This document shows, one piece after another, positions 36,417 through 43,980 of a DNA stretch of 45,029 nucleotides. How positions within the stretch are numbered: the first letter of the stretch is position 1; every line of letters begins with the position of its first letter. This DNA comes from Microcaldota archaeon. GTDB lineage: Archaea; Micrarchaeota; Micrarchaeia; Micrarchaeales; CABMGC01. A program made the translations under genes and the position numbers. The notes beneath the pieces are model-generated. The model had not been told where the DNA came from, made no database searches, and was given only the letters and a program-made list of their open reading frames with translations. The stretch covers positions 1 to 45,029 of the forward strand of contig JAJZKP010000006.1 in NCBI GenBank assembly GCA_021804105.1, in the 5' to 3' direction.

Positions 36417-37154
36417 TTAGCCTGGCAGTCCATGCTGCGCCTGGCGGGCCACAATTCCATCCGGAGTTATATCGAATTGCAGCTCGATATTTTTGTACTG
36501 CGAGTACCTGAGCTTGGCCACGCTGATTGTGTACCTTGTCCTTTCATCCGCATCCCCGTGCTTCTTCAGCCTTATTATATTGTCGAACATTGCTTCATCG
36601 AAGAGGCCGGGCACTTTCGTTGCTTCAGATGACAAAGTATCGCTTATTATTATGCCGGTAACGCCCTTGCTACGCAGGTAGTCCACTATAAGCGCCACAG
36701 CCTTGGTGAATGTCCTATCATCATTCAGGTTAACCCGTATCAGGCCGAGAGAGTCTATTATCATTACCCTTGCCTCGTTGGCCTTTATGGCATTCTCAAG
36801 GATCACAAGGAATCGCTCTATTACGTCTCCGGCCTTTATGGCTATCACCACATTCCTTTCAAGGACAAATAGATTGCCGCTGCTGACAAGCACATCAACA
36901 GCCTCGAAGTTCGGGAATACCGCCTTCATGTTCTTCAGCAGAGATTCCTTCGATTCGTCTATTGAGAGGTATACAACAGGCATGCCGGTTGAGGCGTTGG
37001 CATAGGCAATATTGAGCGCGAGCAAGGTCTTTGCGGTTCCGGTCTCACCTACAAGGAGGGTCTGGGTGCCTTCGGTGAGCCCGCCGTACAGCATGTCATC
37101 TATGCCATGTATGCCCGTGGGAATCTTGCTTGCTTTAGGAGTATCGTCTGACAT
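36417..37154 (-). CDS. KaiC-like RecA-superfamily ATPase
   Basis: 'GIHGIDDMLYGGLTEGTQTLLVGETGTAKT', Walker B 'RVMIIDSLGLI'. Confidence 0.9.
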   Translation of the reverse strand: MSDDTPKASKIPTGIHGIDDMLYGGLTEGTQTLLVGETGTAKTLLALNIAYANASTGMPVVYLSIDESKESLLKNMKAVFPNFEAVDVLVSSGNLFVLERNVVIAIKAGDVIERFLVILENAIKANEARVMIIDSLGLIRVNLNDDRTFTKAVALIVDYLRSKGVTGIIISDTLSSEATKVPGLFDEAMFDNIIRLKKHGDADERTRYTISVAKLRYSQYKNIELQFDITPDGIVARQAQHGLPG

Positions 37155-37218
37155 GACTGGCCCAGCAACAAACTAGTTTAGCACTATTAAAAAGCTTTCG
37201 GAACCACATTTTATGCAG

Positions 37219-38079
37219 TTATATAAGAAGGAGTAGAAGTATTATCAATGCGCGCACAAATAAGCCATTTCTTTGAGAATTGAAATGCATCCTCTCCTCA
37301 ACCTTGGGGTCCTTTGTCTTGCTAACAGCATTCAGTATATAGAGCGCAAATAAGTATGATAACAGTAGGATCAAAAAGGCTGGATTAAGTATTCCGGTAA
37401 CAACCATTATAATAAGGAATATGTAGGCCGCAGTTGCAAATGCTAATTGTATCTTTATTGCAAGTGATTTACCGAATACTACAGGCAAGGTCTTTTTTCC
37501 ATGCTCCCTGTCGCCAATAATGTCAGAGTAGTCTTTAGTCATTGAATACCCAAGGTCTACTAACACCAGGAATAATATCAGTGGCAGCCATCTTGCAAAT
37601 AATGTTAGGTTGTTGCTGCCACTAAAGAATCCTATTGCAGAAGAAACACCAGCATAAGCTAGTGCTATGGTAAGGTAATTTACAAACGTTTTATCTTTCA
37701 GCTTTGTACCCATAGAGTACAATATTCCAAGAAGAACGAATATGGTAATCGCCATTACCAAGTACAAATTAGAAGAGAGCAGTAGCATAGACGCATAGAC
37801 AATTATTATCAGGGTAATGTATATTGCAAGTAACTGTTTTCTTGAGAATGTTTCGTGCATAGCTACTCTTTTCTTGTTACGTATATCTATCTGCCAGTCA
37901 GAATAGTTGTTTATAACATTTGCAGATATGTCTACGAGTATTATCAGATATATTCCCTGCAATAGAAGCAGGATGTTCCCGGATCCAGAAAGTAAGAATC
38001 CAAGTATGGTAGTTGGTACTACAACTATCAGTATAGCTGGGATAAAAGCCTCTTTAAGCCCTTTTAGTTTATTAGTCAT
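37219..38079 (-). CDS. UbiA-family prenyltransferase
   Basis: 'NVINNYSDWQIDIRNKKR' and 'TKDYSDIIGDREHGKKTLPVVFGK' Asp-rich motifs; multiple TM helices. Confidence 0.92.
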   Translation of the reverse strand: MTNKLKGLKEAFIPAILIVVVPTTILGFLLSGSGNILLLLQGIYLIILVDISANVINNYSDWQIDIRNKKRVAMHETFSRKQLLAIYITLIIIVYASMLLLSSNLYLVMAITIFVLLGILYSMGTKLKDKTFVNYLTIALAYAGVSSAIGFFSGSNNLTLFARWLPLILFLVLVDLGYSMTKDYSDIIGDREHGKKTLPVVFGKSLAIKIQLAFATAAYIFLIIMVVTGILNPAFLILLLSYLFALYILNAVSKTKDPKVEERMHFNSQRNGLFVRALIILLLLLI

Positions 38080-39197
38080 GTTACAATCCCGATAGATACT
38101 CTTAAGCTGTTGCTGTATAGCCCTGATTTTATGTCTCTAGCCGATATCTTTGTTCCCGTTTGGCCTTCCAGGAAGCCTTCGATGGCTCCTCTAAGTAGGG
38201 GGAATCTGGATTCCTCAGCGCCGACATACCATGGAACACCTATGAAGTTAAAGTTCTCATATGTTGCAGTCTTTTCTGTTGTAACTATGCCATATCCAAG
38301 CGCAGTAAGCATGTTTGCCAGGAACGAATAGCTGTTGGTCTGTTTTGGGAGATTCTTTCCCATGATCATAAAGGATTCCTTTGCAACTTCATACATTATC
38401 TGATCCCCAAATAATCTTTCTAAATCATAGGGCAGTGATATCTCCACAGGAATAAGTCGCACATTTGGCAAGGAAAATTTCAGGGAACCCTTTTCGTACA
38501 TGAATAACCCGGTCTGCATGAGTTTGTTTACATTGAATGCTCCCGCCGGAACAGGGTTTGGAGGTTTGTTAAATCTTATATACTTTTCATTAAGAGTTTC
38601 TGGCTTGCCTTTTGATTCGTAATATTGGACGCCTCTCTCTTGGAGAGCCACTTCAGGACCGCATATTAGTGTGTATTTGCCGGGACCTTTTGACACGACT
38701 CCGCATTCTACTCCGTCAAAGTTGTTAAGGAAGTATCCCCAGATACCGGCACAGCCACCAACAGTAAGCGGTAAACCACCCCCGTTAACACGCGTCACTA
38801 CAAGATCTGATGTATCTAGAGTGAGTACATTATTGTTGGTATCCACATCAACAGTTATGCTCTCTGCATAAAGTGACTCGAAAAACTTGAAGCTCATCTT
38901 GACCGAAAACTCCAGATCGGATCTGGGCATTCGCGTCAATTCAGAAAACCTATATCCAAACCTTTTGCCAGCGCCATATAGTTTTTCCATTCCGTTTCGG
39001 CCATACATTTCAGATACTTTTTCTTCCAAAGAAATGAAGAACGGCTCTGAAAGGAATATGTTTCTTACGAATGCATTCTGCCCCTGTAGAGTATAATACT
39101 TACCAATTACATAGCCAGGAACATCTATGCGGAAGACTTTTGGTAGCAGAATCTTCTTTAGAAAGAATTCCTTTATTGGATCTGCATTTAATGCCAA
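38076..39197 (-). CDS. Uncharacterised protein, paralogue A
   Basis: Clear paralogue of 40033-41145 (shared 'FFLK...LSEPFF.SLE..VS', 'GYRF..LT..PRSD..FSVKM'). Confidence 0.85.
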   Translation of the reverse strand: MALNADPIKEFFLKKILLPKVFRIDVPGYVIGKYYTLQGQNAFVRNIFLSEPFFISLEEKVSEMYGRNGMEKLYGAGKRFGYRFSELTRMPRSDLEFSVKMSFKFFESLYAESITVDVDTNNNVLTLDTSDLVVTRVNGGGLPLTVGGCAGIWGYFLNNFDGVECGVVSKGPGKYTLICGPEVALQERGVQYYESKGKPETLNEKYIRFNKPPNPVPAGAFNVNKLMQTGLFMYEKGSLKFSLPNVRLIPVEISLPYDLERLFGDQIMYEVAKESFMIMGKNLPKQTNSYSFLANMLTALGYGIVTTEKTATYENFNFIGVPWYVGAEESRFPLLRGAIEGFLEGQTGTKISARDIKSGLYSNSLRVSIGIVT

Positions 39198-39205
39198 TTT
39201 ACCAC

Positions 39206-39967
39206 CTACTTCATTTCAGGTGGTGAAACTACTATTCCCCTGTCTGTTATCTCGAAATTATGGAAGTCTAGGGAATTATGAGTACCTCTGATCTTAAGCA
39301 CTTTCAGCATTCTTGAGGCTCCGCCACCCAAGTCTGCTATATCAAATTGAATAACACCGTCGCAAACGAATTCGCTGACGCCATCTACAGTGAGTCTGTT
39401 CTCTCCCTCAACTCTATCAGTTATTATAACATTTGTAGTGCCTAGTTTAGAGAGATGATTTATTGTGAGGTACGTTGTGCGCTGTTCAGATCCACCAGAA
39501 TAGAATAATTCCTTGTCTGCCATATTAGATGAATTAAGCACTTTGGTGATTTCCTCGTCGTATACCAGCGGCACATCAAATTGATCTATATTAATAGAAA
39601 AGGATGCAAGACTATCGAATACGATTCTTTCTGCTTTGACGCGTTTCACTTCCTCACGTATTTTATCGAATAATCTGACGCTCTTCCTGTCAAGCGGTAC
39701 TTTGACTATTGCAAGTTTATCTTCGTTCTCGAGTTTTTCTATATCCCATCCGAATTGGTCTCCTTGCTGTCTGAAGATTTCATCAGACATATCAAGGGAT
39801 ATGTATACGCCAGGATGACCGGTCACAGCCCCATTATATAGGAATTGCTGCCCGAAGATTGTCTTCCCAGATCCCGGAGAACCGGTTAAAAGTATATTAA
39901 AAGCTTTTGGGAAACCGCCACCCACTAGTTCATCAAAACCGGGTATCCCGGTCGCCACTCTTTCCAC
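39206..39967 (-). CDS. KaiC-like ATPase
   Basis: 'GIPGFDELVGGGFPKAFNILLTGSPGSGKTIFGQQFLYNG', 'ERIVFDSLASF', C-terminal 'VLKIRGTHNSLDFHNFEITDRGIVV'. Confidence 0.95.
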   Translation of the reverse strand: MERVATGIPGFDELVGGGFPKAFNILLTGSPGSGKTIFGQQFLYNGAVTGHPGVYISLDMSDEIFRQQGDQFGWDIEKLENEDKLAIVKVPLDRKSVRLFDKIREEVKRVKAERIVFDSLASFSINIDQFDVPLVYDEEITKVLNSSNMADKELFYSGGSEQRTTYLTINHLSKLGTTNVIITDRVEGENRLTVDGVSEFVCDGVIQFDIADLGGGASRMLKVLKIRGTHNSLDFHNFEITDRGIVVSPPEMK

Positions 39968-40032
39968 TCATATCTCCCATAATACCTACGAACATAGGAT
40001 TTAAATAGCATAGCGGTTAGGTAGCACGGCCA

Positions 40033-41145
40033 TCAGAGTTGTACGTCAATGACTACTCTTAGAGTATTAACGTGCAACTCGGAGCTGAAGTAGCTTGCCT
40101 TTATTGGAGGATTGCCCTGGCCTTCGAGGAATCCGGCTATAGCTCCGCGAAGGAGTGGAAATGTAGACTTGCTTACAGTCTCATACCACGGTGTGCCGCT
40201 GAAAACGAAGCTCATTATTCCTGGGCCTTTTTCTGCAGTTACTATACCGAGACCCATTCCGGTGAGTATATTTGCAAGATATGTGTGGATATTGGCCTGT
40301 TTTGGTATAGTCTTGCCGATTATTGCAAATGACTCCTTTGCTGTCTCGTATACCATTTGCTCCCCAAAAAGCGTTTCTAGCTCGTATGGTAGGAAAATTT
40401 CTACGGAGAGTAAACGTGAATGCGGTAGGGCATACTTGAGCGGGCCTTTGTCATAGTAGAAAGGTTCCGTATGCATCATCTTGTTTGTGTTGAACACATT
40501 AGGCGGGATGTAGCTTGGGGGTTGGTTAAAACGCGTGTATATTGGTTTGTCATTCATGTTTGGTATTCCGTGAGATTCGTAGAACTTTATCCCCATTTCC
40601 TTGAGCTTTTCTGCAGGTGCACTTATTAGCATATAGTTGCCATCGCTTTTGCGTATTATTCCGCACTCTATAGAATTAAAGTCATTCAGGAGGTATCCCC
40701 ATATACCAGCAGTTCCGCCGATCATGACTGGGAGTCCACTTCCATTTACTCTGGTGATCACGAGGTTCTCAGTATCTACCGTAATGACTTTGTCTTCCAT
40801 GTCTATGTCTGGCAAAAGCCGGTCAGCATATATGGATTCTACAAAGTCGTAGCACATTTTAACTGAGAATTTGATATCTGATCTGGGGATATTCGTTAGC
40901 GCACAGAATCTATAACCTAGCTTCTTCCCAACGCCATAGAGTTTTGCAAGCCCTTCCTCTCCAAACTTGTCCGACACTCTCTTCTCAAGAGACACAAAGA
41001 ATGGCTCTGAAAGGAATAGGTTCCTAATGAATATGTTGGATCCCTGACTGCCTAGCACATAGCCAGGCACGTCGACTAGGAACATCCTTGGCAGTACGAC
41101 CTGTTTAAGGAAGAATTCCTTTAGAGAATCTGCATTAAACGCCAT
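40033..41145 (-). CDS. Uncharacterised protein, paralogue B
   Basis: Paralogue of 38076-39197. Confidence 0.85.
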   Translation of the reverse strand: MAFNADSLKEFFLKQVVLPRMFLVDVPGYVLGSQGSNIFIRNLFLSEPFFVSLEKRVSDKFGEEGLAKLYGVGKKLGYRFCALTNIPRSDIKFSVKMCYDFVESIYADRLLPDIDMEDKVITVDTENLVITRVNGSGLPVMIGGTAGIWGYLLNDFNSIECGIIRKSDGNYMLISAPAEKLKEMGIKFYESHGIPNMNDKPIYTRFNQPPSYIPPNVFNTNKMMHTEPFYYDKGPLKYALPHSRLLSVEIFLPYELETLFGEQMVYETAKESFAIIGKTIPKQANIHTYLANILTGMGLGIVTAEKGPGIMSFVFSGTPWYETVSKSTFPLLRGAIAGFLEGQGNPPIKASYFSSELHVNTLRVVIDVQL

Positions 41146-41381
41146 GCAATACCACCTTTATCCAGCGCGCAATCTATTTATGAGCAAGGTATTTAAATAG
41201 CCTCGCAGGTTTCATCGAGAAGGCCCAGCAACCACAATTACATGGCATTAATGTAGACTCTTAACTGCAAACCTCCAATACATGAGCACATAGCAAAGGC
41301 TTAAAAGTGGCAAGGAAGATATTAGATTACTTGGTGAGAATATGTTTGGAGGAGGACCTTATCAACCATAGGATTGTCGCT

Positions 41382-42500
41382 TTAGTTAGACGAATCAATA
41401 GTTGTTTTGACACCGTAGTATCTTTTTCTCTCAGTATATTCTATTTTAGACCCTGATCTTATTCCAAAGTCTTTCTGAAGGAAATGCGCTTGCTCAGAAT
41501 AAGCAGGGTCAAATCTTCTATAGCACAAGGTTCCTATAATAGTATTGGATATTATGGCGCTCTTAACCCTTATGCCTCTTGCTTTGCTAATTATGGTTAA
41601 GGCATCATCAAGATCTTGTTCTTCAAATACAGATAAAAATAACAATGCCCCGAACGGAGTCATTGTATCCCCAGCAAGCGCGTATTTATTGACCCCATAT
41701 TTTCTATCAGTAATAATTTCCTTTAAAACAACATCCCTGCTTTCATAATACTCTTTCTGATCAGTTACCGTGATAAATAACGCAACAGTATAACGTATGG
41801 GTAAATTTTGTATAGAAATGGTTATACGATTTAATATGCCGTTTTCAATAAGTTTATAGTATGCATATTGAGATCTCCCGCCATCAAAGCCATACTTTTT
41901 GTCGATATCAAGAAGATCTGAAGATCCATTAATATTCAATTCTCGTAATGTAGTAAACTCCCTTTGTAATATTTGTTTTTCCTTGTTACTTCGTAGCGCT
42001 TTCTTTCCTTTTTTGATAACTTTCTCTTTAAGTGAATCTACAAATTCATTTCTCAAAGGCATGAAATTGTAATGTTCATAAAAAAGCGATATATACCATT
42101 CCGCAGAATATGTAGCTAAAACAGTGTTTCTTCTAAGGTCGCTGCATATATAAGAGATATCAGTTATATTCTCGGCCAAAACGTATAGAAGAAGATCGTA
42201 ATCCCCGCCTCTTAGGATAGTAGCATACTGTATGTTTATTTTACTTTCAAATGCCTTCTTTATTTCTATAGTTTGGGGGATATCTTTTAGGAATTTTATT
42301 AGTACTATGAATTTTAAATAGCCTAAGTTTTCTATGTTTATTTCGGCCAGGTATCTTATATTTAATCGTTTTTCAAGTGCTTTAACACTGCGGTAAGCTT
42401 TCTGTGGAGATATACCAGCAAGTTTTCCTATTAGCTTTGCCGGGGCCCTACCGTTCATGCTTAGTACAGTGAGTATCTTTTGGTCCTGTTCCTCGTTCAT
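41382..42500 (-). CDS. Lrp/AsnC-like transcription regulator, apparently duplicated architecture
   Basis: N-terminal 'EEQDQKILTVLSMNGRAPAKLIGKLAGISPQKAYRSVKALEKR' HTH; second 'DIDKKYGFDGGRSQYAYYKLIENGIL' HTH-like segment. Confidence 0.78.
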   Translation of the reverse strand: MNEEQDQKILTVLSMNGRAPAKLIGKLAGISPQKAYRSVKALEKRLNIRYLAEINIENLGYLKFIVLIKFLKDIPQTIEIKKAFESKINIQYATILRGGDYDLLLYVLAENITDISYICSDLRRNTVLATYSAEWYISLFYEHYNFMPLRNEFVDSLKEKVIKKGKKALRSNKEKQILQREFTTLRELNINGSSDLLDIDKKYGFDGGRSQYAYYKLIENGILNRITISIQNLPIRYTVALFITVTDQKEYYESRDVVLKEIITDRKYGVNKYALAGDTMTPFGALLFLSVFEEQDLDDALTIISKARGIRVKSAIISNTIIGTLCYRRFDPAYSEQAHFLQKDFGIRSGSKIEYTERKRYYGVKTTIDSSN

Positions 42501-43659: not shown

Positions 43660-43980
43660 TTACATCTCTATGAATACATCGCCACTCGGCTCGTCGAGCC
43701 TTGCTTTGTATGAGACTATGTCCTCGGTTGCCCAAGGCGTGTTCTCGCTCACCTTGCCTGTGTTTATGTTGAACGCTGCGCTGTGCCATGGGCAAATGAT
43801 TTCTCTGCCGTCTATAGAACCGTCATAGAGAGGGCCGCCTTCGTGTGTGCAGGTGCCCCCCAGAACATGTATCTTTCCCTGATGCATGAACACCGCATAC
43901 TTCTTCCCATTGATTTCGGATTCTATAGGAGAATCTTCCTTGAGGTCCTTGGCATTTATGCTGAGCTTGTACTCTGTCAT
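43660..43980 (-). CDS. Rieske [2Fe-2S] ferredoxin-like protein
   Basis: 'CTHEGGPLYDG...IICPWHSAAFNINTG'. Confidence 0.94.
   Translation of the reverse strand: MTEYKLSINAKDLKEDSPIESEINGKKYAVFMHQGKIHVLGGTCTHEGGPLYDGSIDGREIICPWHSAAFNINTGKVSENTPWATEDIVSYKARLDEPSGDVFIEM

Follow-up and report, generated by a model that had tools for sequence, protein, structure and literature searches.

A double V4R protein, a dedicated group of KaiC-like ATPases and prenyl-chain enzymes form a conserved archaeal module with a possible role in membrane-lipid synthesis

The 45,029-nucleotide stretch of Micrarchaeota DNA analysed here (the window), part of a draft genome of 805 kb, carries two KaiC-like ATPases, a UbiA-type prenyltransferase and two paralogous proteins, A and B, side by side, which raises the question of whether these genes constitute a module and what such a module would do. 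An original prediction made from the DNA letters had proposed a KaiC-type energy or signal switch acting together with lipid or prenyl chemistry, with a duplicated Lrp-like regulator as a further component. All six open reading frames were recovered on the minus strand at the positions predicted, and are listed here together with two TATA-like elements.

36417..37154, minus strand: second KaiC-like ATPase, clade K2, an optional companion (KaiC tree)
37219..38079, minus strand: UbiA-family prenyltransferase (PF01040), a divergent extra paralogue
38076..39197, minus strand: A, protein of two V4R domains, 373 aa from a TTG start (V4R halves, AF2, Foldseek)
39206..39967, minus strand: partner KaiC-like ATPase, group K1, 253 aa (PF06745), with an insert after Walker B
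39999..40009, minus strand: GCTATTTAAAT, TATA-like element upstream of the K1 KaiC gene, exact match
40033..41145, minus strand: B, paralogue of A, 370 aa, 54% identity to A
41191..41201, minus strand: GCTATTTAAAT, TATA-like element upstream of B, exact match
41382..42500, minus strand: tandem Lrp-like regulator adjoining B (halves matching each other, E 1.7e-7), probably no specific part of the module

The A and UbiA genes overlap by 4 bp (ATGA), and 8 bp separate the end of the 39206 KaiC gene from A. The GCTATTTAAAT elements, which had been assigned to B and to the 39206 KaiC gene, occur exactly twice in the window against 0.05 copies expected by chance. Elsewhere in the window, a Peptidase C39-like protein (PF11814; 44040-44822) adjoins a small Rieske protein (43660-43980).

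Neither A nor B has a match in Pfam or NCBIfam, and comparison of their sequences with solved structures likewise returned none. They are, as had been proposed, paralogues of about 370 aa, and the suggestion that each consists of two V4R-like halves has been borne out, with each half independently matching V4R proteins. When the family alignment was cut in two and compared as profiles with single-domain V4R proteins that themselves match Pfam PF02830, the N-terminal half gave an E-value of 1.7e-11 and the C-terminal half 8.1e-12, against 0.28 and 0.1 for the respective reversed-sequence controls, while the two halves match each other weakly (probability 35%). PF02830 itself is weakly matched by 12 of 46 A/B members (best E 0.0014), with scores below the gathering score and no match at all for the window's A and B. 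Structure prediction, which had been named as a check, also assigned A to the V4R type: an AlphaFold (AF2) model built from a 46-sequence alignment reached a pLDDT of 91.4, and Foldseek searches of the PDB returned the V4R sensor domains of MopR/PoxR as best matches (E 9.9e-4), followed by MJ1460, TRAPP Bet3, H-NOX and BcsD. At about 0.5 on the target the TM-scores were modest, which is expected when a single domain of a divergent pair is matched. A V4R-type cysteine motif, CxGRGDxxC, is found in the N-terminal half of distant members, about half of the relatives; the A and B of the window have lost it, which may mean a different ligand or role for them. As judged from profiles and model, each A/B protein consists of two V4R domains joined head to tail, a domain type that binds hydrophobic ligands, and ligand binding is predicted for A/B as well.

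Homologues of A/B were gathered from relatives, from a genome contig collection and from 301 genomes of the window's phylum, of which 33 were positive, representing 21 of 126 genera. A single-sequence scan of the contig collection for A/B found nothing; an alignment-based scan recovered 29 loci, and the distribution beyond the window's phylum is drawn solely from the pattern scan. The resulting 53 distinct A/B loci belong to Micrarchaeota, Aenigmatarchaeota, Diapherotrites, Nanohaloarchaeota and Thermoplasmatota. In 46 of these a KaiC gene is no more than four genes from A/B, and in 38 it is the immediate neighbour; a prenyl-chain enzyme, whether UbiA, GGGP-synthase-like PcrB, cis-prenyltransferase or GGR-like, is no more than two genes away in 42. 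When genes near A/B (four or fewer positions away) were compared with those far from it (six or more), KaiC made up 62/355 versus 3/292 (p 3e-14) and prenyl enzymes 53/355 versus 1/292 (p 6e-14), values that are indicative only since A/B loci share descent, and with profiles seeded from neighbourhood genes that may have missed weak distant copies. The enzyme varies among loci while KaiC and A/B are constant, and at several loci lacking an enzyme the contig ends directly after A/B. KaiC, A/B and a prenyl enzyme are a module conserved across archaeal phyla. The original prediction of a conserved gene order holds in this broader form, the particular A-KaiC-B layout having been seen in this genome alone; neither a characterised family of unrelated function for A and B nor an order unique to this genome, the two findings that would have told against it, was encountered. 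Five A/B loci have no nearby KaiC (L013, L014, L022, L151 and the truncated L152), which counts against reading the module as a KaiC switch. The genome also holds a third A/B copy on another contig (C16:4803-5909, L003), with no KaiC, UbiA or other prenyl enzyme nearby. This copy has a syntenic counterpart in a close relative (L013).

The Lrp-like gene has fared differently. Its duplication has been confirmed, the tandem halves matching each other, and its place in the module has not. Six members of its family were matched in this genome, the family is present in 62 of 79 family genomes, the copies adjoining A/B do not cluster, and tandem Lrp genes are no commoner near A/B than far from it (5/355 versus 5/292, same position limits), so the gene is probably no module-specific regulator. 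Tandem Lrp-like regulators, of about 370-470 aa, are expanded in this archaeal family with up to 14 matches per genome, and one is split into two adjacent genes (G192, L140).

The identities of the two KaiC-like ATPases have been confirmed by PF06745, with E-values of 1.8e-55 for the 39206 protein (two stretches) and 1.3e-37 for the other. The K1 protein has the KaiC ATPase domain with intact Walker A and B motifs. In an unrooted tree built by a quick method, KaiCs adjacent to A/B and to V4R proteins lie opposite background KaiCs across one branch (SH-aLRT 100), with A/B-adjacent members from Micrarchaeota, Aenigmatarchaeota, Diapherotrites, Nanohaloarchaeota and Thermoplasmatota records. In genomes without A/B, K1-group KaiCs have single V4R proteins as neighbours, in some cases together with UppS. 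One locus (L021:5630-7926) has four consecutive single V4R proteins beside a KaiC, and nearby are two further KaiCs and one more V4R gene. The region after Walker B measures about 44 aa in the window's K1 protein versus 16-17 in other clades, and a median of 40 aa in the partner KaiC group versus 16; many members have the insert, those of the window's family in its longest and most regular form, and it is missing in Aenigmatarchaeota and some Thermoplasmatota members. At the KaiC EE pair, the first position is mostly acidic in K1 and the second usually replaced, so the ATPase rate of K1 is uncertain, a further point against a switch. The 36417 KaiC belongs to a different clade (K2, nine sampled members, six of them near A/B including the window's), has its own AT-rich upstream region and carries no insert after Walker B. 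Of the two KaiCs originally placed in the module, the 39206 protein is thus the partner and the 36417 protein an optional companion. Both are single domains of 245-253 aa, as aligned to both domains of KaiC, and do not have the two fused domains (CI and CII) of the circadian KaiABC clock; at the CII phosphosites (S431/T432) the K1 motif, VSEF/VSEY, is by eye nearer CI than CII. An anti-phage defence role found no support in PADLOC, whose models gave weak ATPase matches at most (best E 3.5e-5).

The window's UbiA matches PF01040 above the cut-off (E 4.6e-29), as predicted, with its motifs NxxxDxxxD and KDYSDxxGD intact. The genome holds three UbiA genes, two besides the window's, and one canonical GGGP synthase elsewhere. 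In a tree the window's UbiA clusters with module UbiAs outside a 25-member housekeeping clade, and module and housekeeping labels change five times on the tree versus 21 when shuffled. Its scores against the NCBIfam equivalog cut-offs for DGGGP synthase fall short (51 bits versus 353; 49 versus 296). The module PcrBs likewise form their own clade (support 0.992). Sequence comparison identifies the module's UbiA and PcrB as divergent extra paralogues; that they are the housekeeping GGGP/DGGGP synthases is ruled out, other or canonical copies being present elsewhere. Prenyl genes near A/B were checked with Pfam/NCBIfam. Most loci have UbiA, seven have a GGGP-synthase-like PcrB, in many cases accompanied by a HAD phosphatase, and others a cis-prenyltransferase; GGR-like oxidoreductases or methyltransferases are additionally present at some, the GGR labels in L130 and L145 being weak and uncertain. 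A PcrB label in L038 (26 bits, 430 aa) was judged spurious. The UbiA and PcrB families both use prenyl diphosphates, and UbiA and a confident PcrB never occur together among the 53 loci, which points to the prenyl chain as what they have in common. In one four-member UbiA clade (L020, L041, L135, L137) the first Asp motif is degenerate, and methyltransferase genes adjoin A/B or UbiA at some of these loci (Pfam-checked for L020 and L135).

The constancy of KaiC and the double V4R protein beside a changing prenyl-chain enzyme is consistent with a KaiC switch that responds to a prenyl-binding receptor. A, and B, would be soluble receptors binding a long prenyl chain, either a lipid of the geranylgeranyl or polyprenyl kind or the corresponding diphosphate. 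In its bound or its free form, the receptor would engage the K1 KaiC ATPase, for which the insert after Walker B is a plausible docking site, and alter the ATP-bound or oligomeric state of the ATPase. That state would in turn govern the cluster's own prenyl enzyme, UbiA in the window, or that enzyme's access to prenyl substrate. The genes, the double V4R fold, the KaiC group, the conserved neighbourhood and the divergent extra prenyl enzymes are the established part; we infer the ligand, the docking and the direction of control, and confidence and doubt in this V4R-KaiC switch are about evenly weighed. The conserved neighbourhood and the V4R fold give the predicted link between a KaiC switch and lipid or prenyl chemistry a better footing, though the link itself is one that we still infer.

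The main rival to a switch is a dedicated biosynthetic module making a special prenylated lipid or quinone-like compound, with A/B as a hydrophobic carrier or accessory enzyme and KaiC performing ATP-driven remodelling with no signalling. Such a module would account for the divergence of the prenyl enzymes and for the partial pathways seen among the neighbours (PcrB-HAD, PcrB-GGR, UbiA-GGR, UbiA-methyltransferase), and a hydrolase is known within a V4R-like family (PMC5847659). It is nonetheless rather unlikely, considering that the enzyme set varies by locus around a constant KaiC and A/B, leaving no fixed catalytic core, and that the same KaiC group also pairs with plain V4R proteins.

A membrane or trafficking scaffold, where A/B would resemble TRAPP Bet3, dock acyl or prenyl chains and position KaiC at membranes while the prenyl enzyme supplied lipid locally, is less probable still. 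The Foldseek matches include palmitate-bound TRAPP Bet3 and Asgard TRAPPC3, solved Bet3-type structures bind hydrophobic chains, and the ancestor of Bet3 has been proposed to be a V4R protein; yet the TRAPP matches are no better than those to V4R sensors, A/B have no sequence match to Bet3/TRAPPC3, and none of the neighbours checked was recognised as a small GTPase or a tether. That unrelated genes merely adjoin one another is extremely improbable: these are small genomes with several KaiC genes each, and the Lrp gene exemplifies a chance neighbour, but the association recurs in 46 and 42 of 53 loci across several phyla with a group-specific KaiC and UbiA, and the near/far enrichment rules out chance adjacency for KaiC and the prenyl enzymes.

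Against this background of alternatives, the V4R-KaiC switch combines families that are already known, the V4R fold and KaiC ATPases. A/B share their fold with the V4R domain (PF02830) of the XylR_N/MopR/PoxR/DmpR aromatic sensors, as reflected in weak, repeated profile matches and in the cysteine motif of many A/B relatives; unlike these sensors, A/B consist of two fused V4R domains with no fused effector, apparently acting in trans with KaiC, and those of the window have no cysteine site. KaiC ATPases have been proposed as archaeal signalling hubs (cited in PMC5847659). With that proposal (Makarova et al., 2017) the module shares a single-domain KaiC ATPase beside a sensor-like partner, and it departs from it in its distinct KaiC group, many members having the insert, its constant double-V4R partner and its tie to prenyl enzymes. 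The enzymes come from the families of archaeal ether-lipid synthesis (GGGP synthase, DGGGP synthase/UbiA, GGR) and UppS, with the main active-site motifs mostly kept; in contrast to those enzymes, the module copies lie outside the housekeeping clades. No description of the double-V4R fusion, the K1 KaiC group or the prenyl-enzyme tie turned up in the literature that could be searched, which did not include the 2017 KaiC survey, so an earlier one may exist.

Taken together, the module points to a means, so far undescribed, by which archaea may sense or steer membrane-lipid synthesis. More tentatively, and with doubt somewhat outweighing belief, it may represent a class of signalling in DPANN archaea and their relatives that has yet to be described, where a double-V4R isoprenoid receptor would drive a dedicated KaiC group adjusting membrane prenyl-lipid synthesis. 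The inputs and outputs of many archaeal KaiC-like ATPases are mostly not known, and one group now has a testable candidate input, a V4R protein with a hydrophobic ligand, and a candidate output, a prenyl enzyme. If true, this would be a KaiC-based counterpart of the lipid-sensing regulation already known from bacteria and eukaryotes, and would offer a handle on how archaea with reduced genomes adjust or modify their membrane lipids.
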